Shown piece after piece: positions 17-61,840 of a stretch of 64,000 nucleotides of DNA. The stretch comes from Ectothiorhodospiraceae bacterium WFHF3C12 (GTDB taxonomy: Bacteria; Pseudomonadota; Gammaproteobacteria; Nitrococcales; Nitrococcaceae): contig JACDUA010000002.1 of NCBI GenBank assembly GCA_013519935.1, positions 1 to 64,000 of the forward strand. The letters are read 5' to 3'. Every line of letters starts with the position of its first letter. The first letter of the stretch is position 1. A program made the position numbers and the translations under genes. The notes under the pieces are model-generated. The model saw only the letters and a list, made by a program, of their open reading frames with translations. It had not been told where the DNA came from and did not search any database.

Positions 17-50
17 ATCGGTAACACTTGAGTTCAAGGACAGGGGTTAC
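17..50. repeat. Left terminal inverted repeat of the IS
   Basis: Bases 17-50 are the reverse complement of 1263-1296 with a single mismatch near the inner end. Weaker identity (GGTACGG, then TCA) continues outward to position 1. Confidence 0.85.
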
Positions 51-1222
51 ACCTTGAGGGTTAGGTAGTCGTCGCGGTGTTTGCCGGTCGGCTGGTCCTT
101 GACCTGACCCAGGCGCACGGGGCCGAAGCTGACCACCCATAACCGCTCATCGACCTGCTCTAGGGCCACGTCTTCGCCATGGAGGACGTAGCCGACGTAG
201 AGCTGCTTGTTGTGCCAGTAGACTACGCCGGTGTTGCTTACCCGACGTACCTCTACATGGCTCGGGTAGGTCCACACCGGTAGTTGGCTCGGCATCTGCC
301 GCTGCGAGCGCCGGTAGAGCGTCCTTGGTAGATCCTGGCCCAGCGACTCGTGCGGGCGCTGCTCGTTGTATTCATCGCGAAAGGTGTCGAACTGCGCTTG
401 CTGTTCGGCGAAGTTAGCGGCAACCGGGTAGGTGGCGGCGCGCTTGAGAGTTCGGTGCATGCGCTCGTGGCGCGGGTTTTGCTGGGGCCTGCCCGGGGTG
501 ATGCGCTCGGGCTGGATGCCGAGCTTGATCCACCAGATCGACAGCCGCGAGAGCCCGGCTGTAGCGGTGCTCGCGAAGGGCGCGCCGTTGTCGCTGCGGA
601 TCCGCGCCGGTAAGCCGTATTCGCGGAACAGCCGCTCGAACACCGCCTGGCTGGCGTGGTACCCGGTCCCGCCCAGCCCCTGGCAGCCGAGCAGGTAACG
701 GCTGGCATGGTCCATGACCGTTAACGGATAGCACCACGGCCCATCACCGAGCTTGAACTGCCCCTTGAAGTCCACGCTCCACAGATCATTGGGCTCGTGG
801 GCCGGGGCAAAGGCCTGTTGCGTCGGCTCAACGCGGCGCCGACGCCGGCGCGGCTCGATGCGCCCGGCAGCCTTGAGGATGTTGTAAATGCTGGTCTTCG
901 AGGGCGGCGGCTGCTCGGGAAAGCGCCACTGCAACAGCCGCTGGATCTTCTTCGGCCCCCGCGGATCGCGGGGACTGCCGCGCAACGCCAGCACCTGTTC
1001 ACGCACCGCATAGGGGATCTGCTCGGGGTTGGTGTGCGGTCGGCGGCTGCGCTCGATGAGCCCCGGTGGGCCGACTTCGGCGTAACGCCGCACCCACTTG
1101 TAGCCGGTCTTGCGGCTGACCCCGTAGCGCTCACACAGCCGGCTGAACGGCTCATCGCCTTCAATGCAATCGGCGATAAACTGCACACGTTCATCCATCG
1201 GTCGCACCTGCTGCCAGGGCAT
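47..1222 (-). CDS. IS481-family transposase
   Basis: 391-residue DDE transposase that moves the surrounding element. An N-terminal helix-turn-helix region (CERYGVSRKTGYKWVRRY) is followed by an integrase core with the first Asp in LWSVDFKGQF, the second in RSDNGAPF and the Glu in PRHERMHRTLKRA, then the YNEQRPHESLG segment usual for this family. The start was placed at 1222 because GAGGAGGT lies just upstream; an extension to 1285 would run into the terminal repeat. The reading frame is intact, so the element may still be active. Confidence 0.9.
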   Translation of the reverse strand: MPWQQVRPMDERVQFIADCIEGDEPFSRLCERYGVSRKTGYKWVRRYAEVGPPGLIERSRRPHTNPEQIPYAVREQVLALRGSPRDPRGPKKIQRLLQWRFPEQPPPSKTSIYNILKAAGRIEPRRRRRRVEPTQQAFAPAHEPNDLWSVDFKGQFKLGDGPWCYPLTVMDHASRYLLGCQGLGGTGYHASQAVFERLFREYGLPARIRSDNGAPFASTATAGLSRLSIWWIKLGIQPERITPGRPQQNPRHERMHRTLKRAATYPVAANFAEQQAQFDTFRDEYNEQRPHESLGQDLPRTLYRRSQRQMPSQLPVWTYPSHVEVRRVSNTGVVYWHNKQLYVGYVLHGEDVALEQVDERLWVVSFGPVRLGQVKDQPTGKHRDDYLTLKV

Positions 1223-1262
1223 GGGAACCTCCTCTGTGTCGCTCCCATGCACCGTAAGGACT

Positions 1263-1296
1263 GTTACCCCTGTCCTTGAACTCAAGTGTTACCGAT
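1263..1296. repeat. Right terminal inverted repeat of the IS
   Basis: Reverse complement of 17-50 with one mismatch. The outward extension to 1312 ends in CCGTACC, the complement of the first seven bases of the window. Confidence 0.85.
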
Positions 1297-10053: not shown

Positions 10054-11493
10054 ATGTTCGACATGCCCGATGGCCTGATCGTCGTCGCCAAACGTGATTG
10101 CCCGACCTGTGCGCTGATCGAGCCGCTGTTGAATGACCTGCGCCGCGCCGGGGATGGGCTCACCGTCTATGTTCAGGACGACCCGGCCTATGCCGCGGAT
10201 GTGTCGGGCGCTGTGCTCGACGACACGCTGGAGGCGTCATACCGGCTTAACATCGAGATCGTGCCGACGCTGATACGCGTCGAGAACGGTCACGAGGTCG
10301 AGCGCACCTACGGCTGGCACCGCGGAGACTGGCAGCGCATCAGCGGGGTCGAATCGCTGGGCGCCGAGCTGCCGGAGATGCGCCCGGGTTGCGGTTCGAA
10401 ATCGCTGGATCCGGGCGTGGCCGAAGAGCTGGCCGTGCGTTTCGGCGGCGACAACCTCAAATCCCGGCGGGTCGAGCTGGGGGAGGCCGAGGACGCCATC
10501 GAGGCGCTCTACGACCGGGGCTGGACCGACGGACTGCCCGTGGTGCCGCCGACCCCCGCCCGGGTGCTGCGCATGCTCCAGGGTACGCCTCGGTCGCCTG
10601 ACGAGGTCCTGGGCAACGTGCCACCGGACCTGGCGCCCTGCACGGTGGAGAAGGTTGCCGTCAACGCGGTCATGGCCGGCTGCAAGCCCGAGTACATGCC
10701 ACTGGTACTGGCGGCGGTGGAGGCCGCGCTGATCGACGAGTTCGGCATGCACGGCCTGCTGTGCACCACGATGTTCGCGGGCCCCGTGGTCGTCGCGAAC
10801 GGTCCTGCGGCCCGCGCGGTGGGCATGAACTCGGGCATTAACGCGCTGGGCCAGGGGAATCGGGCCAATGCCACCATCGGACGGGCACTGCAGCTGGTTA
10901 TCCGCAATGTGGGCGGCGGCCGGCCGGGGGAAATCGATCGCTCGGCGCTCGGTAACCCGGGCAAGTACACGTTCTGCTTCGCCGAGGCGGAGGACAGCGA
11001 CTGGGAGCCGCTCTCGGTGGAGCGCGGCTTTTCGCGCGGGACCTCCACGGTGACCCTGTTCCCCGGCGAGGGCGTGCAGGGTATCGTGGACCAGAAGTCG
11101 CGCACGCCGGAGTCCCTGGCACGCAGTTTCGCGGCTTCGCTGCTGGCCGTGGACAATGTCAAGATGGCGATGGCCGGCGACGCGATGCTCGTGGTGTCCC
11201 CGGAACACAGCCGGGTATTCACGGAGGCAGGCTGGTCCAAGGCGCGGCTGCGCGAGGAGCTCGAGCGGCTGCTGGAGCGTCCCGGCGAGGAGCTGATCGC
11301 CGGGGCGGGCGGCATCGCCGAGGGACTGCCGGAGTCCCTTGCGGCCGGGAAGACCATACCCAAATTCCGGCCGGAGGGTCTGCTCATCGTGCGGGCCGGC
11401 GGCACCGCCGGCCTGTTTTCCGCGATCATTGCCGGCTGGGCCGCATCAGGTCCGGTTGGTTCCACGCCTGTTACCAAGGAGGTGGATGCATGA
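10054..11493 (+). CDS. Thioredoxin-fold protein with UGSC-associated domain
   Basis: 479 residues. Residues 1-110 look like a thioredoxin fold: the beta strand LIVVAKRD leads to CPTC (C16, C19), and IVPTLI later supplies the usual cis-proline. Residues from about 145 onward form a large domain opening with LYDRGWTDGLPVVPPT and rich in Gly/Ala, which I cannot assign to a characterised enzyme. The start at 10054 has GGAGGAGGAGC upstream. The stop overlaps the next start by ATGA, and that next gene encodes a UGSC selenoprotein, so the two are made together and probably act together. The inferred role is electron transfer to the Sec-containing partner, or a redox reaction carried out jointly. Confidence 0.7.
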   Translation: MFDMPDGLIVVAKRDCPTCALIEPLLNDLRRAGDGLTVYVQDDPAYAADVSGAVLDDTLEASYRLNIEIVPTLIRVENGHEVERTYGWHRGDWQRISGVESLGAELPEMRPGCGSKSLDPGVAEELAVRFGGDNLKSRRVELGEAEDAIEALYDRGWTDGLPVVPPTPARVLRMLQGTPRSPDEVLGNVPPDLAPCTVEKVAVNAVMAGCKPEYMPLVLAAVEAALIDEFGMHGLLCTTMFAGPVVVANGPAARAVGMNSGINALGQGNRANATIGRALQLVIRNVGGGRPGEIDRSALGNPGKYTFCFAEAEDSDWEPLSVERGFSRGTSTVTLFPGEGVQGIVDQKSRTPESLARSFAASLLAVDNVKMAMAGDAMLVVSPEHSRVFTEAGWSKARLREELERLLERPGEELIAGAGGIAEGLPESLAAGKTIPKFRPEGLLIVRAGGTAGLFSAIIAGWAASGPVGSTPVTKEVDA

Positions 11494-12014
11494 CTGACGC
11501 AACCGTAGTGCTCGACCCGACCGCCGAGCGGTCGCCGGCCGAGCGGGCCCGCCTGGCGAGACCGCCGTCACTGGACGGCCGTACCGTGGGGCTGCTGGAC
11601 ATCTCGAAGCCGCGCGGCGACGTGTTCCTCGATCGTCTGGAGGCGCTGCTCGCCGACCGCGGGGTCAGCGTGCAGCGCTACCGCAAGCCCACGTTCACGC
11701 GCATCGCGCCGACCGAGCTGAAACAACAGATCTCGGACGAGTGCGACGTCGTCGTTGAAGGCCTGGCCGACTGAGGCTCCTGCACGTCGTGCTGTATGCA
11801 TGACATCGCGGACCTTGAAGGCCGGGGCATTGTGGGTGTGGGCGTTGCCTCGAGCGAGTTCGTCGACGCGGCCGCGCTGCAGGCGAAGTCCCTGGGTTTC
11901 GATCCGGCCATGGTCTTCGTGGCGCATCCGGTCCAGGATCGCAGCGATGACGAGGTCCGGGCCCTGGCGGACGCTGCGCTGGACGAAATTCTCCGGGCCC
12001 TCACCGACGCCTGA
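11490..12014 (+). CDS. UGSC-type selenoprotein (TGA at 11772 read as Sec)
   Basis: Read through TGA at 11772-11774, this frame gives 174 residues with selenocysteine at position 95 in the motif D-U-G-S-C, followed by T-S-C-C. It then continues with good coding character (IADLEGRGIVGVGVASSEFV) to a TGA at 12012-12014. If the first TGA were a stop, the product would be a 94-residue stub and the following 79 codons would lack a start. UGSC-containing selenoproteins are a known bacterial family of unknown function. U95 and C98 form a UxxC pair like the thioredoxin active site. The gene is coupled by ATGA to the thioredoxin-fold gene and lies 95 bases before selA, in an island with selB and tRNA-Sec. 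The downstream hairpin at 11786-11804 fits a bacterial SECIS. Confidence 0.9.
11786..11804 (+). promoter_or_regulatory. Bacterial SECIS-like hairpin
   Basis: A seven-base-pair stem, GTCGTGC (11786-11792) with GCATGAC (11798-11804) and one G-U pair, closes a five-base loop UGUAU. The loop begins 19 bases after the UGA and has G in its second position. These match the known requirements for bacterial SECIS elements, which lie inside the coding region just after the UGA and are bound by SelB. No folding program was run. Confidence 0.75.
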
Positions 12015-12109: not shown

Positions 12110-13501
12110 ATGAGCACCGCTGATCCTTCTCCCCATTCCCGTCTCCCCGCCGTGGACCGTGTGCTTGGCTGGCCGGTCGTCGCCGCTCTGGTCCAGGTCC
12201 ACGGCCGGGCGTTGGTCCTGGACGCCGTTCGTGAAGAGCTGGCGGCCTGGCGCGAGCGCCCGGAGGGCGTCAACGACGAGGCCATCGCCGCGGGCGTAGC
12301 CGAACGGGTGAAAGCCATCCTGGCCCCGTCCCAGCGCCCGGTTCTGAATCTCACGGGCACGGTGTTGCACACCAACCTCGGCCGGGCGCCTCTGCCGCCC
12401 GAGGCCATCGAGGCCATGGCCGCTGTCGGTTCCGGCGCCTCCAACCTGGAGTATGACCTCGACCGGGGCCGGCGCGGCGACCGGGACGACCACATTGAAT
12501 CGTGGCTGTGCCGGCTCACCGGGGGCGAGGCGGCGACGGTGGTCAACAATAATGCTGCGGCCGTGCTACTGACCCTGAACAGCCTGGCGTTGCGCCGGGA
12601 AGTGGTGGTCTCCCGCGGCGAGCTGATCGAGATCGGGGGCGCTTTCCGCCTGCCGGACATCATGTCCCGGGCGGGCTGCCGGCTGCGCGAGGTGGGCACC
12701 ACCAACCGGACTCACGCCGCCGACTACGCCGAGGCCATCGGCGAACGGACCGGGCTTTTGCTCAAGGCCCACACCAGCAACTACCGCATCGAGGGCTTCA
12801 CCGCCGAGGTGCCCATGGCGGAGCTCGCCGCGCTCGGACGGGAACGGAACGTGCCCTGCGTCGAGGACCTCGGGTCCGGCACGCTGGTGGATCTGTCCCG
12901 CTTCGGGTTGCCTCACGAGCGCACGCCGGCCGAGAGCCTGGCCGCCGGTGCCGATCTCGTGACCTTCAGCGGGGACAAGCTCCTGGGCGGTCCCCAGGCG
13001 GGCATCATCGTCGGCCGCGCCGACCTGGTGAGGCGCGTCCGCGGCAACCCCATGAAACGCGCCATGCGCTGCGATCGAGTGACTCTCGCCGCCCTCGAGG
13101 CCGTGCTCCGGCTCTATGCCGATCCCGACGCGGTGGCCCGGCGCGTACCCGCGGTGCGTCTGCTGGTCCGGTCCGCCGAGGATATCGGGGCGCAGGCCCA
13201 CAGACTGCGCCCGACCGTGGCGGACTGGGCCGGCGGCTCTGCGGACGTGGATGTGATCCCGGTCCAGAGCCAGATCGGCAGCGGCTCGCTGCCCGTGGAT
13301 CTCCTGCCCAGCTTCGCATTGCGCCTGGCCCCTCGCGGCAGCCGCTCCGGCCGGGCACCGGAACGGCTGGCCAAGCGGCTGCGGCGGCTGCCGGTGCCCG
13401 TGATCGGCCGGGTCTCCGAAGGTGCGGTGCTGCTGGACATGCGCTGCCTCGAGGAGGAGGCGGCGTTCATGAAGGCCTTTGGCACCGTTCAGCCGGCATG
13501 A
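12110..13501 (+). CDS. selA: L-seryl-tRNA(Sec) selenium transferase
   Basis: 463 residues, the normal length for SelA. It uses pyridoxal phosphate and selenophosphate to convert seryl-tRNA(Sec) to selenocysteinyl-tRNA(Sec) in the cytoplasm. Family motifs include LNLTGTVLHTNLGRAPL near residue 80, VVNNNAAAVLL, GTTNRTH, and FSGDKLLGGPQAGI, in which K290 is the expected cofactor lysine. It ends in an ATGA overlap with selB, so synthesis of the two is coupled. The ribosome site is weak. Confidence 0.97.
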   Translation: MSTADPSPHSRLPAVDRVLGWPVVAALVQVHGRALVLDAVREELAAWRERPEGVNDEAIAAGVAERVKAILAPSQRPVLNLTGTVLHTNLGRAPLPPEAIEAMAAVGSGASNLEYDLDRGRRGDRDDHIESWLCRLTGGEAATVVNNNAAAVLLTLNSLALRREVVVSRGELIEIGGAFRLPDIMSRAGCRLREVGTTNRTHAADYAEAIGERTGLLLKAHTSNYRIEGFTAEVPMAELAALGRERNVPCVEDLGSGTLVDLSRFGLPHERTPAESLAAGADLVTFSGDKLLGGPQAGIIVGRADLVRRVRGNPMKRAMRCDRVTLAALEAVLRLYADPDAVARRVPAVRLLVRSAEDIGAQAHRLRPTVADWAGGSADVDVIPVQSQIGSGSLPVDLLPSFALRLAPRGSRSGRAPERLAKRLRRLPVPVIGRVSEGAVLLDMRCLEEEAAFMKAFGTVQPA

Positions 13502-15456
13502 TCGTCGCCACCGCGGGCCATGTAGATCATGGCAAGACTCGCCTGATCCGGGCGCTCACCGGGGTCGATACGGACCGGCTCGAGGAGGAGAAACGGCGCG
13601 GTCTGTCCGTCGACGTGGGTTTCGCCTACGCGGATCTGGGTGGCGACCGGCTGCTGGGGTTCGTCGACGTGCCCGGCCACGAGCGCTTTCTGCGCAACAT
13701 GCTGGCCGGGCTGGCCGCCATTGATTACGCATTGCTCGTGGTCGCCGCCGATGACGGGCCCATGCCGCAGACCCGTGAGCACCTGGCCATTCTGGACCTG
13801 CTTGGCGTGCGGCGCGGCGCGGTGGCGATCACCAAGATCGATCGCGTGCCGCCATCACGTGTGCGGGAGGTGGAGCGGGCAGCGGCCGCGCTCCTGGCGC
13901 CGACGGGGCTGTCCGGTGCGGCGATGTTTCCGGTGGCTTCGGGGCACGGCGAGGGGGTCGGGGCGCTGCGCGCGCATCTCCTCGAGGCGGAGCAGGCTTC
14001 GCGAATGCCGGAGCCGCGAGGGGCGTTTCGTCTCGCCGTGGATCGCAGCTTCATCCTGGACGGTGTCGGGCGGGTGGTGACCGGCGTCGTCCTCTCCGGT
14101 ACGGCCCGGCCCGACGATACGCTGATTGTCAGCCCGGCCGGCATACGCGCCCGTCTGCGGGGCATCCATGCCCACAATCGACCGGCCGAAGCGGCGCGGG
14201 CGGGCCAGCGATGCGCCCTGAATCTGGCGGGCCAGGAGCTCGACGGGGACAAAGTGCTGCGCGGCGCCTGGGTGGTTTCCCCGGCGCTGCACGAGCCGAC
14301 CGCCCGCATCGATACCCGCCTGCGCGTGCTCGCCACCGAATCGCGTCCCCTGGCGCACTGGACACCCGTCCACGTGCACCTCGGCGCGGCCGCCGTGACC
14401 GGCCGCGTGGCGCCGCTGGAATCCCGTGCGCTGGCCCCCGGCTCGGACGGCCTGGTCCAGCTCGTGCTGGATCGGCCCGTGCAGGTGAGTCACGGCGACC
14501 GCTTTGTAATCCGGGATCAGTCCGCCCGACGAACGATTGGCGGTGGCAGCGTTATCGATCCATTCGGCCTGAAGCGCGGGCGTGGCCGGCCGCAACGGCT
14601 GAGCCAGCTGGAGGCCATGCGCACGGATGACCCTCGGGCGGCATTCGGGGTGCTGCTCGGGCAGTCGCCGGGTGGTGTCTGGCTGGAGCGGTTCGCGCAG
14701 ACCTACAACCTCGCCGCCGAAGAGCGGGAAACGCTTCTCCAGTCCACCGAAGCCAGGACGGTGAAGGGGCAGGACGGCGTGCTGGCCATTGGGGGTGAGC
14801 ATTGGGAGACCCTGTGTGCGCGCCTGTTGGACACGCTGGAGGCATGGCACGCGGAATACCCGGAGAGCCGGGCTATGCCGGAGGCCATGGTGTCGGCGCG
14901 GCTCGGCCGAGACATCCCCGACGCCGCCGTCCGTGCGGCGGGCCGGGCGTTGCAGGAAACCGGTGACATCGAGAGGGACGGCTTCGGCCTGCGGCTGGCG
15001 GGACACCAGCCGGTGCTGGCCGAGGCCGACCAGGCGCTGCTGAGCCGCTTCCGGCATCATCAGGCGGACGGCGGGCCACCACGGCCGCCCAACATCGGCA
15101 ACCTGGCTACCGAAGTCGGACTGGCGCCGGAAGCCCTGGTGGACAGGCTTGAAAGGTTGACGCGGCTGGGGCATCTCGAGCGGCTCGGCCGCAATCGCTA
15201 CCTGACGCCGGAAGCCGTGGTCGAGCTGGCGGGCGTCGCCCTGGCGCTGGCCGCCGAGAGCGAGGACGGGACTTTCGACACGGCCGCCTACCGGGATCGC
15301 TCTGGCATCGGCCGCAACCACACCGTTAAGGTGCTCGAACACTTGGACCGATTGGGGATCACGCGCTTCGGCGGCGGCCGGCGCAGCATATCCCTATGGG
15401 CCCGCAGCGATGGGCCGGGCGCGTATGCTACTGTCCCGAATCTGGGAACGTCCTGA
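13498..15456 (+). CDS. selB: Selenocysteine-specific elongation factor
   Basis: 652 residues. The GTPase domain begins at once with GHVDHGKT, followed by DVPGHERFLRNM and ITKID. Translation-factor beta-barrel domains follow to about residue 350, and the C-terminal part carries the winged-helix repeats that bind the SECIS hairpin (for example IGNLATEVGLAPEALVDRLE and the last segment with SGIGRNHTVKVLEHLDRLGI). SelB delivers Sec-tRNA to UGA codons. The start lies within the selA stop, and the stop is only 15 bases from the tRNA-Sec gene, so selA, selB and the tRNA gene look like one unit. Confidence 0.97.
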   Translation: MIVATAGHVDHGKTRLIRALTGVDTDRLEEEKRRGLSVDVGFAYADLGGDRLLGFVDVPGHERFLRNMLAGLAAIDYALLVVAADDGPMPQTREHLAILDLLGVRRGAVAITKIDRVPPSRVREVERAAAALLAPTGLSGAAMFPVASGHGEGVGALRAHLLEAEQASRMPEPRGAFRLAVDRSFILDGVGRVVTGVVLSGTARPDDTLIVSPAGIRARLRGIHAHNRPAEAARAGQRCALNLAGQELDGDKVLRGAWVVSPALHEPTARIDTRLRVLATESRPLAHWTPVHVHLGAAAVTGRVAPLESRALAPGSDGLVQLVLDRPVQVSHGDRFVIRDQSARRTIGGGSVIDPFGLKRGRGRPQRLSQLEAMRTDDPRAAFGVLLGQSPGGVWLERFAQTYNLAAEERETLLQSTEARTVKGQDGVLAIGGEHWETLCARLLDTLEAWHAEYPESRAMPEAMVSARLGRDIPDAAVRAAGRALQETGDIERDGFGLRLAGHQPVLAEADQALLSRFRHHQADGGPPRPPNIGNLATEVGLAPEALVDRLERLTRLGHLERLGRNRYLTPEAVVELAGVALALAAESEDGTFDTAAYRDRSGIGRNHTVKVLEHLDRLGITRFGGGRRSISLWARSDGPGAYATVPNLGTS

Positions 15457-15471
15457 AACGTCAGTAATCCC

Positions 15472-15567
15472 GGAAGGGAATCGCTTCCCGGTGGAGCGCC
15501 CGGACTTCAAACCCGGTGAGACGCGTTGAACGTGTCTGGTGGGTTCGACTCCCACTCCCTTCCGCCA
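15472..15567 (+). tRNA. selC: tRNA-Sec (anticodon TCA)
   Basis: 96 bases including an encoded CCA at 15565-15567. An eight-base-pair acceptor stem (GGAAGGGA with TCCCTTCC), the anticodon TCA at 15507-15509 in a seven-base loop, a long variable arm (about 15520-15545) and a T-arm with GGTTCGACTCC are visible. The long acceptor and extra arm are the hallmarks of tRNA-Sec, which reads UGA. It overlaps the 3' end of the opposing selD fusion gene by 61 bases. Confidence 0.97.
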
Positions 15568-17855
15568 TTCTCCCGGTGATGGGCGTCCGTCCCGCGAAGG
15601 GTGACGCGCGCCTGTCCCTGGTCGACGACCTGCCCGATGATCGCGGCATCGCCATATCCCAGGTCATGCAGCGCCGTAACGCATTGCCGGGCATTGGCGC
15701 CCGGGACGCTGGCGAGCAGTCCCCCCGCGGTCTGCGGGTCGAACAGTAACGGATAGTTCTCGTGGTCGAGCCCATCACCGGCATCCAGGTGGGCGGATGC
15801 CGCTTCCCGGTTGGCCGCGTGCAGCGAGCTGACGATACCGGCGCGGAGCGTTTCCCGAACGCCCGGCAGCAGCGGCAGGGTGTCCGGATCCAGCTCCACG
15901 CCCGTTCCGGAGGCCCGCGCCATTTCCAGCAGGTGGCCGGCGACGCCGAAACCGGTAACGTCGGTGCACGCCGTCGCGCCGTGCTCGCGCAGGCAACCCG
16001 CGGCGGCCATGCTGCTCTGACGCATGGCTTCTATGGCGGCGTCGATCCAGCGACCGCGAGCGGCCAGCCGGGCGTGCGCCGCGAGCAGACAGCCGGTACC
16101 CAATGGTTTGGTGAGTACCAGGGCGTCGCCGGGACGCATGCCGCTTTTGGTCAGAGCGGATTCGTCGTCCGCCAGCAGACCATTGACCGTGAACCCCAGC
16201 GACAGCTCACGGCTCTCGCTGGAATGCCCGCCCACGAGACGGCAGCCGGCCCCGGCAAGCGTGTTCAGCGCGCCCGCAAGCATCTGGTACAGGGTGTCCT
16301 CTATCTTCTCGGGATGGGCGTGGGGGACGGCGGCGACGGCTGTCGCGGAATGGGGCGCGGCGCCCATCGCGTAGAGATCGCCCAGGGCGTGATTGGCGGT
16401 GATCTGGCCGAACACGTAGGGGTCGCTGATGAAGGCCGGAAAGAAGTCGGTGCTCTGCACCAGCGAGTAGCCGGCCGGCAGACGCAGCACCGCGGCGTCG
16501 TCCGGCGTATCCAGGCCGACGGCCACGTCGTCCGGGTCGGTTCCCTTCGAAAGCCGCGCGAGGACGCGATGAAGCGCCGTTGCGGCGATCTTCGCGCCGC
16601 AGCCGGCGCAGCGCATGCCCGAAGCTGACAGTGTCTCGATGTCGGCCGGTGTGAGTGCGACCGGCGCGGGTTGGCGGGTGCCGGGGACGGGCATCTGCGG
16701 CAGATCCGAGAAGCGTGCCATGAACGAACGGTCGATGTGATCCTTCCACCGCCAGACCCATCGGCCGCTGAAGGAGATGGCGCCCCGGGAGGCCACGGCG
16801 TACCGGTCCCCGGTACTGATCAGTGCCAGCCATTTGCCTTGTGGGTGGTAGGGCCTGGTTGACCGTCCCTGAATCCGCCGGCGCAGGTTCGCGGCCAGCG
16901 GGCGTCCCTGACGCACGGCGAAGACGCCGGCCTTCTCACGCGGGTGATTCACCAGCGTGGCGATGTCGCCGGCGGCGAAGATATTCGGGTCGGTGGTCGT
17001 CTGCAGCGTGTCATTGGCCTTGATGAAGCCATCGTCGTCCAGATCGAGGCCCGTCTCCCGCAGCCAGTGGGCGCCGCCGGCCTGGGTCGCCCAGATGATC
17101 TCGTCGGCCTCCAGCTCGCTTCCCCCGGTCGTCCGCAGCGCGCCCGCGGAGACCGACTGCACCGCGGCATCGCAGTGCAGGTGTACCCCTCGAGCGCGGA
17201 GGATGCGTTCGAAGTGGCGGCGCACCCGCGCATTGTGCGTCGGCAGGATCTGTCGCGACGCCGTTACCAGGTGGAACGCGACTGCCTCCGGATCGAGGCC
17301 CGCAGCGCGGCGTTCCATCTGCAGGCGATACTGGATGGCGAGGGTCAGCTCGACGCCGCCGGCGCCGCCCCCGACCACCGCGATGCGCTGGTGGCCCGGG
17401 TGCCGCCGCAAGCGCTCCAGAAGGGTCAGCCAGCGGTCATTGAAGCGGTAAATCGGCTTCACCGGCACCGCGTGATCCGTCGCGCCGGCCACGCGGTGCA
17501 TCTGGGGGGTGGCGCCGATGTTCAGCGATAGCAGATCGTAGGGCACCGGGGGCCGCCGGGCGCACAGGACGTGCCGCGAATCCCGGTTGAGCCCAACGGC
17601 CTCGTCCGAGAAGAACCGGGCGCCTGCGAACTCGGCGAGGCGGCGCAGATCGATGTGGACGTCATCATAGTCGTAGTGCCCCGCGATATACCCGGGCAGC
17701 ATGCCGGAGTAAGGGGTGTGGGTATCCCGGCAGATCAGCGTCAGGCGAACCCCGGGGAGGGGGTTCATGGCGAAGCGCCGGAGCACGCCGACGTGGCTGT
17801 GGCCGCCGCCGACCAGAACGATCTCCCGAAGAACCGGTTCATCCATTCGCTGCAT
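15507..17855 (-). CDS. selD: FAD-dependent oxidoreductase fused to selenide, water dikinase
   Basis: 782 residues. Residues 1-370 are a pyridine-nucleotide-disulfide-type flavoprotein (IVLVGGGHSHVGVLRRF, IAVVGGGAGGVEL, and NIFAAGDIA for the FAD end). Residues 400-765 are SelD, which makes selenophosphate from selenide and ATP. The SelD signature GMRCAGCGAKIAA has C419 and K422 at the catalytic positions, and PFAM-like GGHSSE, TDVTGFGVAGHL and FDPQTAGGLL follow. The catalytic position is Cys, not Sec. This flavoprotein-SelD fusion is known in proteobacteria. The last 20 codons are antisense to tRNA-Sec and are probably not a conserved part of the enzyme. It is the last gene of a minus-strand row starting at the ATP-grasp gene. 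Confidence 0.93.
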   Translation of the reverse strand: MQRMDEPVLREIVLVGGGHSHVGVLRRFAMNPLPGVRLTLICRDTHTPYSGMLPGYIAGHYDYDDVHIDLRRLAEFAGARFFSDEAVGLNRDSRHVLCARRPPVPYDLLSLNIGATPQMHRVAGATDHAVPVKPIYRFNDRWLTLLERLRRHPGHQRIAVVGGGAGGVELTLAIQYRLQMERRAAGLDPEAVAFHLVTASRQILPTHNARVRRHFERILRARGVHLHCDAAVQSVSAGALRTTGGSELEADEIIWATQAGGAHWLRETGLDLDDDGFIKANDTLQTTTDPNIFAAGDIATLVNHPREKAGVFAVRQGRPLAANLRRRIQGRSTRPYHPQGKWLALISTGDRYAVASRGAISFSGRWVWRWKDHIDRSFMARFSDLPQMPVPGTRQPAPVALTPADIETLSASGMRCAGCGAKIAATALHRVLARLSKGTDPDDVAVGLDTPDDAAVLRLPAGYSLVQSTDFFPAFISDPYVFGQITANHALGDLYAMGAAPHSATAVAAVPHAHPEKIEDTLYQMLAGALNTLAGAGCRLVGGHSSESRELSLGFTVNGLLADDESALTKSGMRPGDALVLTKPLGTGCLLAAHARLAARGRWIDAAIEAMRQSSMAAAGCLREHGATACTDVTGFGVAGHLLEMARASGTGVELDPDTLPLLPGVRETLRAGIVSSLHAANREAASAHLDAGDGLDHENYPLLFDPQTAGGLLASVPGANARQCVTALHDLGYGDAAIIGQVVDQGQARVTLRGTDAHHRENGGREWESNPPDTFNASHRV

Positions 17856-59830: not shown

Positions 59831-60220
59831 TCACCCGGTCCCGGCCCGCCCGCCGGCGCTGTTCCCGCTTTCTTTCAGCTCTCGCACCGGCCGCACCTCG
59901 ATGCTGCCGTAACGCGCCGGAGGTATGCCGCCGGCGAGGCGGATCGCCTCGTTGAGGTCGCGGGCTTCGAGCATGTAGAAACCGGCGAGCTGCTCTTTGG
60001 TTTCCGCGAAGGGGCCGTCGGTGGTGGTCAGGCGTCCTTCGCGGACGCGGACCGTGGTGGCCGTTTCCACCGGTTGCAGCGGCGCGCCGTCCAGATAATG
60101 GCCGCCCTCCGACAATCCTTCCACGCAGGCCATGCATTCCCGGTTCAGGGCATCCCATTCCCGCTGGGACATGCCGTTCATGATCTGTTCGTCGTAGTAG
60201 ACCAGCGCCAGGTATTTCAT
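59831..60220 (-). CDS. DGPF/YCII-domain protein
   Basis: 129 residues. The motif TTTDGPFAETKEQLAGFYML is the DGPF signature of YCII-related proteins, a small alpha/beta fold of poorly known function. ATG at 60220 has GGAGAGACC upstream. With the gene at 60269 and the sigma factor at 61841, it forms the known ECF42/DGPF arrangement. Confidence 0.88.
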   Translation of the reverse strand: MKYLALVYYDEQIMNGMSQREWDALNRECMACVEGLSEGGHYLDGAPLQPVETATTVRVREGRLTTTDGPFAETKEQLAGFYMLEARDLNEAIRLAGGIPPARYGSIEVRPVRELKESGNSAGGRAGTG

Positions 60221-60268
60221 GGGTCTCTCCTTTTCAGGGCCGGGGCGCAGGTGCCCGGACCCTCCCGG

Positions 60269-61096
60269 TCAGGCCGGCGTTTCGCAGTTGATCATCCAGG
60301 GTGTGCCGAACCGGTCCACCAGCATACCGAAGCGGTGGGCCCAGAAGGTTTCCGACATCGGCATGCGGATCTCGCCGCCTTCGGCCAGGCGGTTGAATGC
60401 CTGCTCCGCGCGGGCCGGGTCGTCAATGGCGACCTGCACGCTGAACCCCTGGGGCCGTTCGTAGTATCCCGGCGGAGCGTCAGAGGCCATGAGCTGCCAG
60501 CGGCCCGCGCGTATGCAGGCATGGATGATTTTGTCCTGCCACTCCGGCGACGCCTCGCCGGCCGCCGGCGTCTCGGCGTGGGTGAGCATGGCCTCGACGT
60601 GGCCGCCCAGGCAGTCGGCATAGGTTTCCATGGCCTCGCGGCAGGTGCCGGGGAAGAACAGGTAGGGGCACGTGCCGGACGGCTGGCGCTGAAGCCGATC
60701 GAACTGATTGGCGATGCGGTCCAGGGCGTCCCCCTGGGTGAACTCCTCCATTTCGAAGAACCGGCGCAGCTCCAGCTCCGCCTCGCCGTCACCGTCCAGG
60801 GACGGCCATTGCAGCGCCCATTCGACGGCCTCGTCCTGCGACGCCACGTCGATGACGGTGTAGCCGGCGATGAGCTCTTTGGTCTCCGTGAAAGGGCCGT
60901 CGGTGACCGTCGGCTTGCCGTCTGAGAACTTGATGCGAACGCCGTAGCTGCTGGGTTTGAGGCCGGCGCCGTCGACCATGACGCCGGCATTGACCAGGCG
61001 GTCGTTGTAGCGGCCCATGGCGTCCAGCAGGGCTTCGCCGGGCATGATTTCCGCCTCGGTATCCGCGTCGGCCTTTCTGATGATCATGAATCGCAT
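60269..61096 (-). CDS. DGPF/YCII domain fused to PhnB-like glyoxalase-fold domain
   Basis: 275 residues. Residues 1-125 form a DGPF domain (VTDGPFTETKELIAGYTVID). Residues 140-275 resemble PhnB/3-demethylubiquinone methyltransferase-like proteins of the glyoxalase fold (CPYLFFPGTCREAMETYADCLGG and EIRMPMSETFWAHRFGMLVDRFGTPWMINCE). Catalytic activity is not certain. ATG at 61096 with GGAGTCACACCCCT upstream. It lies 48 bases upstream of the next DGPF gene on the same strand. Confidence 0.87.
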   Translation of the reverse strand: MRFMIIRKADADTEAEIMPGEALLDAMGRYNDRLVNAGVMVDGAGLKPSSYGVRIKFSDGKPTVTDGPFTETKELIAGYTVIDVASQDEAVEWALQWPSLDGDGEAELELRRFFEMEEFTQGDALDRIANQFDRLQRQPSGTCPYLFFPGTCREAMETYADCLGGHVEAMLTHAETPAAGEASPEWQDKIIHACIRAGRWQLMASDAPPGYYERPQGFSVQVAIDDPARAEQAFNRLAEGGEIRMPMSETFWAHRFGMLVDRFGTPWMINCETPA

Positions 61097-61132
61097 AGGG
61101 GTGTGACTCCCGCTGATGTGGCCGTCCGTTGC

Positions 61133-61579
61133 TCAGGGGGTGAGGTCGAAGAGCACGGCGCTGGTGTTCATGTCGAAGGGCGTCGATACGTGTTCGTGGG
61201 CGATGCGCCAGGCATTGCCATCGCGGCGCATGCACACGGTGTAGCGCATCCAGCCGCTGTTTTCCCGGCCGTCCTCGCCGACCATGCCGCAGCGCATGAG
61301 CATATGGGCGAAGGCGAGGTCTCCGTCGCATTCGATCTCCACCTGGTCGAATTCGCCGACGGGCTCACCGCTACAGAAGTCCATGCAGGCTTTCCAGTGC
61401 GCGGCGTAGTCCTCCCTGCCCCGGAACTGCAGGGCGGTGACCGCGTCGAAGCTGCGCACATCGGCCGTGTAGTGGGTCATGATCCGCTCCACGTCCCCCT
61501 GGTGGAACGCGTCCAGCCAGTCGTCGAGCACGGCCTGGATGGCGGTTTCGGGGGTTTCTTGAGCTGTTCTTGCGTCCAT
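61133..61579 (-). CDS. SnoaL-like / DUF4440-type protein
   Basis: 148 residues. The NTF2-like fold is indicated by VLDDWLDAFHQGDVERIMTHYTADVRSFD and the C-terminal WRIAHEHVSTPF. Members bind small molecules or act as isomerases and hydrolases; the substrate is unknown. ATG at 61579 has GAGGCAAGCACC upstream. It is between the sigma factor and the DGPF genes and probably in the same unit. Confidence 0.82.
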   Translation of the reverse strand: MDARTAQETPETAIQAVLDDWLDAFHQGDVERIMTHYTADVRSFDAVTALQFRGREDYAAHWKACMDFCSGEPVGEFDQVEIECDGDLAFAHMLMRCGMVGEDGRENSGWMRYTVCMRRDGNAWRIAHEHVSTPFDMNTSAVLFDLTP

Positions 61580-61679
61580 GGTGCTTGCCTCGTTTGGGGT
61601 GGATTTCACTATGTAGTCGAACGGGGCGCGTGGTTTTCGACAGGGTTGCGACTTTTTTCGAAGGGCGTGCCGATTGGAG

Positions 61680-61830
61680 CGCGGCGAAGGAGGATTGCTG
61701 CGGTGTGGAAGGCGGTTCGCGGCTTGCGCCGCTCCTACGGTTGGCGGGGGCGTAACGGTGTAGGAGCGGCCCCTGGCCGGGAACCGGTTGACGGGCCGTC
61801 GCGGCGGGGACGCCGCCGCCCCATCTGGGC
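61680..61830. repeat. REP-like repeats
   Basis: GGTTCGCGGCTTGCGCCGCT then CCTACGG, GTAGGAGCGGCCCCTGGCCG and GCGGCGGGGACGCCGCCGCC. They are three elements of the same family as 59335, in the gap before the sigma factor gene. Confidence 0.75.
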
Positions 61831-61840
61831 CGATTGGATG

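Follow-up and report, generated by a model that had tools for sequence, protein, structure and literature searches.

The 64,000-nucleotide stretch analysed here (the window), from Ectothiorhodospiraceae bacterium WFHF3C12, carries a reading frame that begins with ATG 11490 and runs into a TGA at 11772-11774. Does the gene end at this codon, or is the codon read as selenocysteine (Sec), and what might the longer protein then do? A sequence-only reading had proposed a UGSC selenoprotein, which ordinary annotation would reduce to a stub of 94 residues. This proposal proved exact to the base. Standard ORF calling at 11490 gave an ORF of 94 aa, while reading the TGA as Sec gave the motif D-U-G-S-C-T-S-C-C followed by open frame, with 79 codons after the TGA, 72 residues after TSCC and a stop at 12012-12014. 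The distance of 95 bases to selA was equally correct, and the island described around the gene, with selB, tRNA-Sec and selD, was found in full (Table 1).

Table 1. Coordinates of the UGSC gene, its recoding signals and its neighbors in the window.
Feature	Position	Strand	Details or support
Partner gene: N-terminal thioredoxin fold with C16-P-T-C19 and ~350-aa C-terminal domain without Pfam/NCBIfam model	10054-11493	+	
AAGGAGG, Shine-Dalgarno-like, upstream of UGSC start	11477-11483	+	Sequence; presumed function
UGSC-family selenoprotein gene, 174 aa, TGA read through as Sec95	11490-12014	+	Sequence, family models, conservation
Sec codon TGA (codon 95)	11772-11774	+	TGA in 81/81 loci; Cys codon in L100, L122, L123, L124, L137, L138
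Predicted SECIS element	11772-11815	+	Upper stem 11786-11792 with 11798-11804; loop UGUAU 11793-11797
SECIS lower pairs	11774-11776 with 11813-11815; 11782-11783 with 11808-11809	+	
selA	12110-13501	+	TIGR00474, 575 bits
selB	13498-15456	+	TIGR00475, 373.6 bits
tRNA-Sec, anticodon TCA	15472-15567	+	ARAGORN; Rfam RF01852, 73 bits
Pyridine-nucleotide oxidoreductase-SelD fusion, Cys form	15507-17855	-	TIGR03169 and TIGR00476 above cut-off

The read-through protein matched the NCBIfam model NF041046, "UGSC family (seleno)protein", with 152.8 bits (cut-off 125) over all of its 147 positions, and PF24696 with 150.8 bits (cut-off 25), which bears out the family identity assigned from sequence. When scored alone, the two halves of the protein reached 57 and 75 bits and covered model positions 1-68 and 70-147, the missing position being that of Sec. 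With its full-length match above the cut-offs, its UGSC motif and a residue at the site that is Sec or Cys across the family, the protein differs in nothing essential from other members; the Sec form in the window adjoins selA-selB. The family was named in a 2008 ocean survey, which counted 255 sequences (PMC2398784), and a 2026 review lists it without function (PMC13188914). Thus, the gene is a further member of a family known since 2008, and the fixed partner and the link to GrdB described below are the new hints. It follows that the sequence-only reading was right to call the gene hidden as far as plain ORF calling goes, but not in the sense of an unknown one, since NCBIfam and Pfam models of the family exist. 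The predicted stub does occur in at least one public record. On the IncP plasmid of Acidovorax sp. T1 (L121, 6001-6516), the UGSC gene with its TGA is annotated as a 96-aa (291-base) "hypothetical protein," and the part downstream of the TGA is left unannotated in the plasmid table. Gene calls at the UGSC TGA thus lose half of the protein.

Conservation was assessed on 81 loci, consisting of the window and the best 80 of 443 related places that a search across bacteria and archaea returned. The 80 homologous loci come from proteobacteria and Chloroflexi. In every one of the 81, this codon is TGA, the motif reads UGSCTSC and 78 to 97 open codons follow. The sequence-only reading had named homologs ending at this position, or a frame without conservation behind it, as signs against a selenoprotein; instead, all 80 further loci run past the TGA, and the frame after it is under purifying selection (pN 0.167, pS 0.667), with the two shifted frames showing the reverse. 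It had also pointed to position 95 as the place to look for Sec or Cys. In addition to the Sec-carrying loci, six more distant homologs (Table 1) have Cys there, and these Cys-form relatives belong to another proteobacterial genome, haloarchaea, Arthrobacter and Embleya. We found UGSC in 0 of the 22 genomes of the same family that were searched and no UGSC relative on viral contigs.

A blind scan of the window, which counted TGAs flanked on each side by 40 or more open codons, ranked the UGSC TGA first of 259 for coding potential on both sides. Two other high scorers on the minus strand, at 61135 and 60271, were set aside, as they look like the ends of adjacent genes lying in one frame. The run they split (59836-61840, minus strand) mimics read-through and looks like an ordinary succession of genes. 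The view that the UGSC gene stops at the TGA, leaving a 94-aa protein followed by a decayed remainder or an independent ORF, agrees with plain ORF calling and with one public homolog annotation, but it is already refuted by the downstream frame, kept and under selection in 81 loci, and is further opposed by a single family model that covers both halves end to end and by relatives with a Cys codon at the same place, so that its probability is negligible.

The sequence-only reading had advised a search for a hairpin directly behind the TGA, and one follows, with an upper stem of 7 bp. From codon +4 to codon +10, counted from the TGA, synonymous sites are nearly frozen and pS falls to 0.150 as compared to 0.61-0.67 elsewhere (ACG in 73/80, TCG in 80/80, TGT in 75/75, and CAT in 79/80), and synonymous variation returns to normal directly after codon +10. 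Across 56 sequences, the pairing was kept in 98.7% of cells, while any slid register gave at most 50%. Ten doubly changed cells preserved pairing, a number reached in 0 of 500 shuffles; examples of such compensatory changes are ACG..GAC to ACA..GAT and TGC..ATG to TGT..ACA. The loop G at +23 and U at +24, counted from the U of UGA, are invariant, and G and U occupy the same positions in the element of Escherichia coli fdhF, the sequence of which was confirmed as fdhF. In the E. coli element, SelB contacts loop G23/U24. In one Cys homolog, L100, the loop G/U and two of the closing pairs are gone, which, judged from its sequence, is a single but telling control. No bacterial SECIS family in Rfam matched at the gathering threshold.

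The UGSC start codon overlaps the stop codon of the upstream gene (ATGA). Together with the AAGGAGG ahead of the start, this overlap suggests that the translation of the two genes is coupled. Sec incorporation is supported as strongly as sequence permits. We regard it as virtually certain that UGSC is a genuine selenoprotein, with its UGA recoded by SelB and tRNA-Sec through the 3' hairpin; it is probably coexpressed and translationally coupled with its partner.

The selenium genes nearby fit a wider pattern. In 58 of the 81 loci, at least one of selA and selB is found within 3.5 kb of UGSC, and in 49 both are; therefore, the pairing of UGSC with sel genes is common and not peculiar to the genome of the window. 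As in the proteobacterial islands that combine an Ndh-SelD fusion with selA-selB-tRNA-Sec (PMC2398784), the window has the same fusion, with a Cys-form SelD, adjoining other sel genes. In contrast to those islands, the fusion gene here is encoded on the other strand and shares 61 bases with the 3' part of tRNA-Sec. The minus-strand gene ends within the tRNA, so that these bases are antisense to its 3' end. A search of the same genome for Fdh-alpha as a further selenoprotein returned only sub-cut-off relatives, 0 with an internal TGA. Near the start of the window (47-1285, minus strand), there is a transposase-like ORF with an integrase core, IS481-like by eye.

The upstream gene proved to be a fixed companion. 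It adjoins UGSC in 80 of the 81 loci, and the contig of the remaining one begins inside UGSC. In distant members, the C-terminal domain of the partner follows UGSC, precedes it without the thioredoxin part or is fused to it. In Arthrobacter, four separate genes lie side by side in the order trxB, trxA, partner, UGSC, which supports thioredoxin as the electron source. The partner has no invariant Cys. Besides selA/selB, no other gene recurs widely near UGSC as consistently as the partner in the 81 loci; nor was a conserved catabolic neighbor found among them beyond the partner and the sel genes, and the genes around UGSC in the window offer no clue to a catabolic role. The genes near the haloarchaeal Cys forms (CoA transferase, PEP-mutase-like lyase, and TTT or TRAP transporter genes) hint weakly at small organic acids. 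A PDB sequence search with the partner profile returned only weak thioredoxins and chance-level rows, and the Foldseek and VIA lists were filled by the thioredoxin domain, so that the fold of the C-terminal domain was barely probed. This domain is likely to be the fusion domain that the 2008 survey termed "Unknown_1." In one gammaproteobacterial genome (G353; L085, L089-L096), UGSC occurs nine times, mostly as a fusion with the partner domain. Several of these copies carry divergent motifs such as USTC and USLC and signal-peptide-like N termini, and their sequences look as if they were adapted to different substrates.

What kind of protein is UGSC? A thioredoxin-like fold was supposed for it in the 2008 survey (PMC2398784) and is still listed in the 2026 review (PMC13188914). 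The AF2 model (pLDDT 93.5) is at odds with this proposal, as it predicts a flavodoxin-like strand-helix order (b-a-b-a-b-a-b-a-b-a), unlike thioredoxin, and places Sec where the helix behind strand 3 begins. The best structural matches of the model were Rossmann-like. The match with the highest Z score (12.2) was chain H of 8s7v, a methyl-coenzyme M reductase activation complex. The VIA list for the model held no thioredoxin chain, although absence from the list is no proof, and a PDB sequence search with the UGSC profile gave no match. These predictions bear on the reading of UGSC as a general thiol-disulfide oxidoreductase of thioredoxin-like fold, acting in peroxide defence or repair, for which the UxxC motif, the thioredoxin domain of the partner and the printed family lists all speak. 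We consider it unlikely, though the best placed of the alternatives, because in addition to the modeled fold, the profile comparison of UGSC with the partner's thioredoxin domain yielded nothing (E 0.061 over 12 columns), and the large conserved non-thioredoxin domain of an obligate partner fits a dedicated enzyme better.

Profile comparisons pointed to a different relationship. Aligned against GrdB/PrdB proteins of Peptoclostridium and Acetoanaerobium with hhalign, the UGSC profile gave an E value of 3.6e-7, with Sec placed on Sec and a shared UG(S/T)CTxC; against a PrdB-centered set, the E value was 8.1e-6. The GrdB score of 54.8 compares with a maximum of 24.3 when all columns were shuffled and of 44.5 in 100 controls in which the motif was kept and the rest shuffled. 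With the motif masked, the match dropped to 25.1 (E 0.01) in an unchanged register; thus, UxxCxxC contributes more than half of the score. These controls make homology between UGSC and GrdB probable but not certain. Among the aligned UGSC proteins, 31 of 38 matched the GrdB model TIGR01917, the best with an E value of 2.4e-6, far below the full-family score, and several also matched the GrdF, GrdH and PrdB models. The UGSC protein of the window had no match of its own to PF07355 or TIGR01917 in scans to E 10, and UGSC does not reach the family cut-offs (602.2 bits for TIGR01917 and 22 bits for PF07355). On the evidence of these alignments, a remote kinship of UGSC with the GrdB/PrdB Sec domain is probable. 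In the limited set of literature searched, we found no mention of this link.

The resemblance to GrdB, GrdF, GrdH and PrdB (TIGR01917, TIGR01918, TIGR04483, and PF07355), subunits of glycine, sarcosine, betaine and D-proline reductases, lies in the UG(S/T)CTxC that follows a strand, with Sec on Sec, in the downstream layout up to an HP motif and in the linkage to thioredoxin. The differences are equally clear. UGSC has 174 aa as compared to ~430 in GrdB, scores far below the family cut-offs and has no GrdE/PrdA-like partner; it was found here mostly in proteobacteria rather than in clostridia that ferment amino acids. Comparisons of the partner with GrdE/PrdA (PF09338) were empty (hhalign probabilities 0.1 and 0.2), so that at the profile level the partner shows no relation to them. 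Because of this, we did not file UGSC as a member of the glycine-reductase family, and its substrate chemistry may therefore differ from that of GrdB/PrdB. Separately, an alphaproteobacterial genome (G770; L105, L107-L112) contains, besides a UGSC gene, seven GrdB/PrdB-like genes in which a UPxC or UPxx motif contains an in-frame TGA.

A full enzyme of the glycine/proline-reductase type, in which a pyruvoyl group on the partner binds the substrate as an imine and the alpha carbon is attacked by Sec95, would draw on the relation to the GrdB/PrdB Sec domain, with its shared UxxCxxC, and on the Arthrobacter trxB-trxA genes beside the UGSC-partner pair. Yet the partner is unlike GrdE/PrdA and is devoid of an invariant Cys, and only the partner and selA/selB recur widely in the neighborhoods. 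This makes such an enzyme improbable, and more so than a general oxidoreductase.

The pairing of a recoded UGSC selenoprotein with a thioredoxin-fused partner is, with good confidence, the best explanation of the locus as a whole. With regard to the working of the pair, we lean moderately toward a thioredoxin-fed Sec reductase, of which the electron flow and chemistry are conjectural. Sec95, at the helix start after strand 3 of the modeled flavodoxin-like fold, would serve as the nucleophile and would reductively cleave or reduce a small substrate that UGSC and the C-terminal domain of the partner hold between them. It would then form a selenenylsulfide with Cys98 (or Cys101), which the thioredoxin domain of the partner (C16-P-T-C19) could reduce, and this domain would in turn be recharged by thioredoxin reductase.

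A broader picture can be offered only tentatively. UGSC and its thioredoxin-fused partner may be an oxygen-tolerant cousin of glycine/proline reductase, in which the GrdB Sec domain was recruited to a substrate-binding partner of undescribed fold. The result might be a reductase that is self-contained, driven by NADPH and thioredoxin and directed at C-N, C-O or C-halogen bonds, with a distribution that covers Proteobacteria, Chloroflexi, Actinomycetota and, in the Cys form, haloarchaea, often as diversified paralogs. UGSC is among the commonest selenoprotein families of aquatic microbes (PMC2398784) and is still without a function. Of these results, the partner and the GrdB link most deserve pursuit: given a fixed, thioredoxin-carrying partner and a probable relation to GrdB/PrdB, what was an "unknown redox protein" would become a concrete reductase of two proteins, open to expression and assay.
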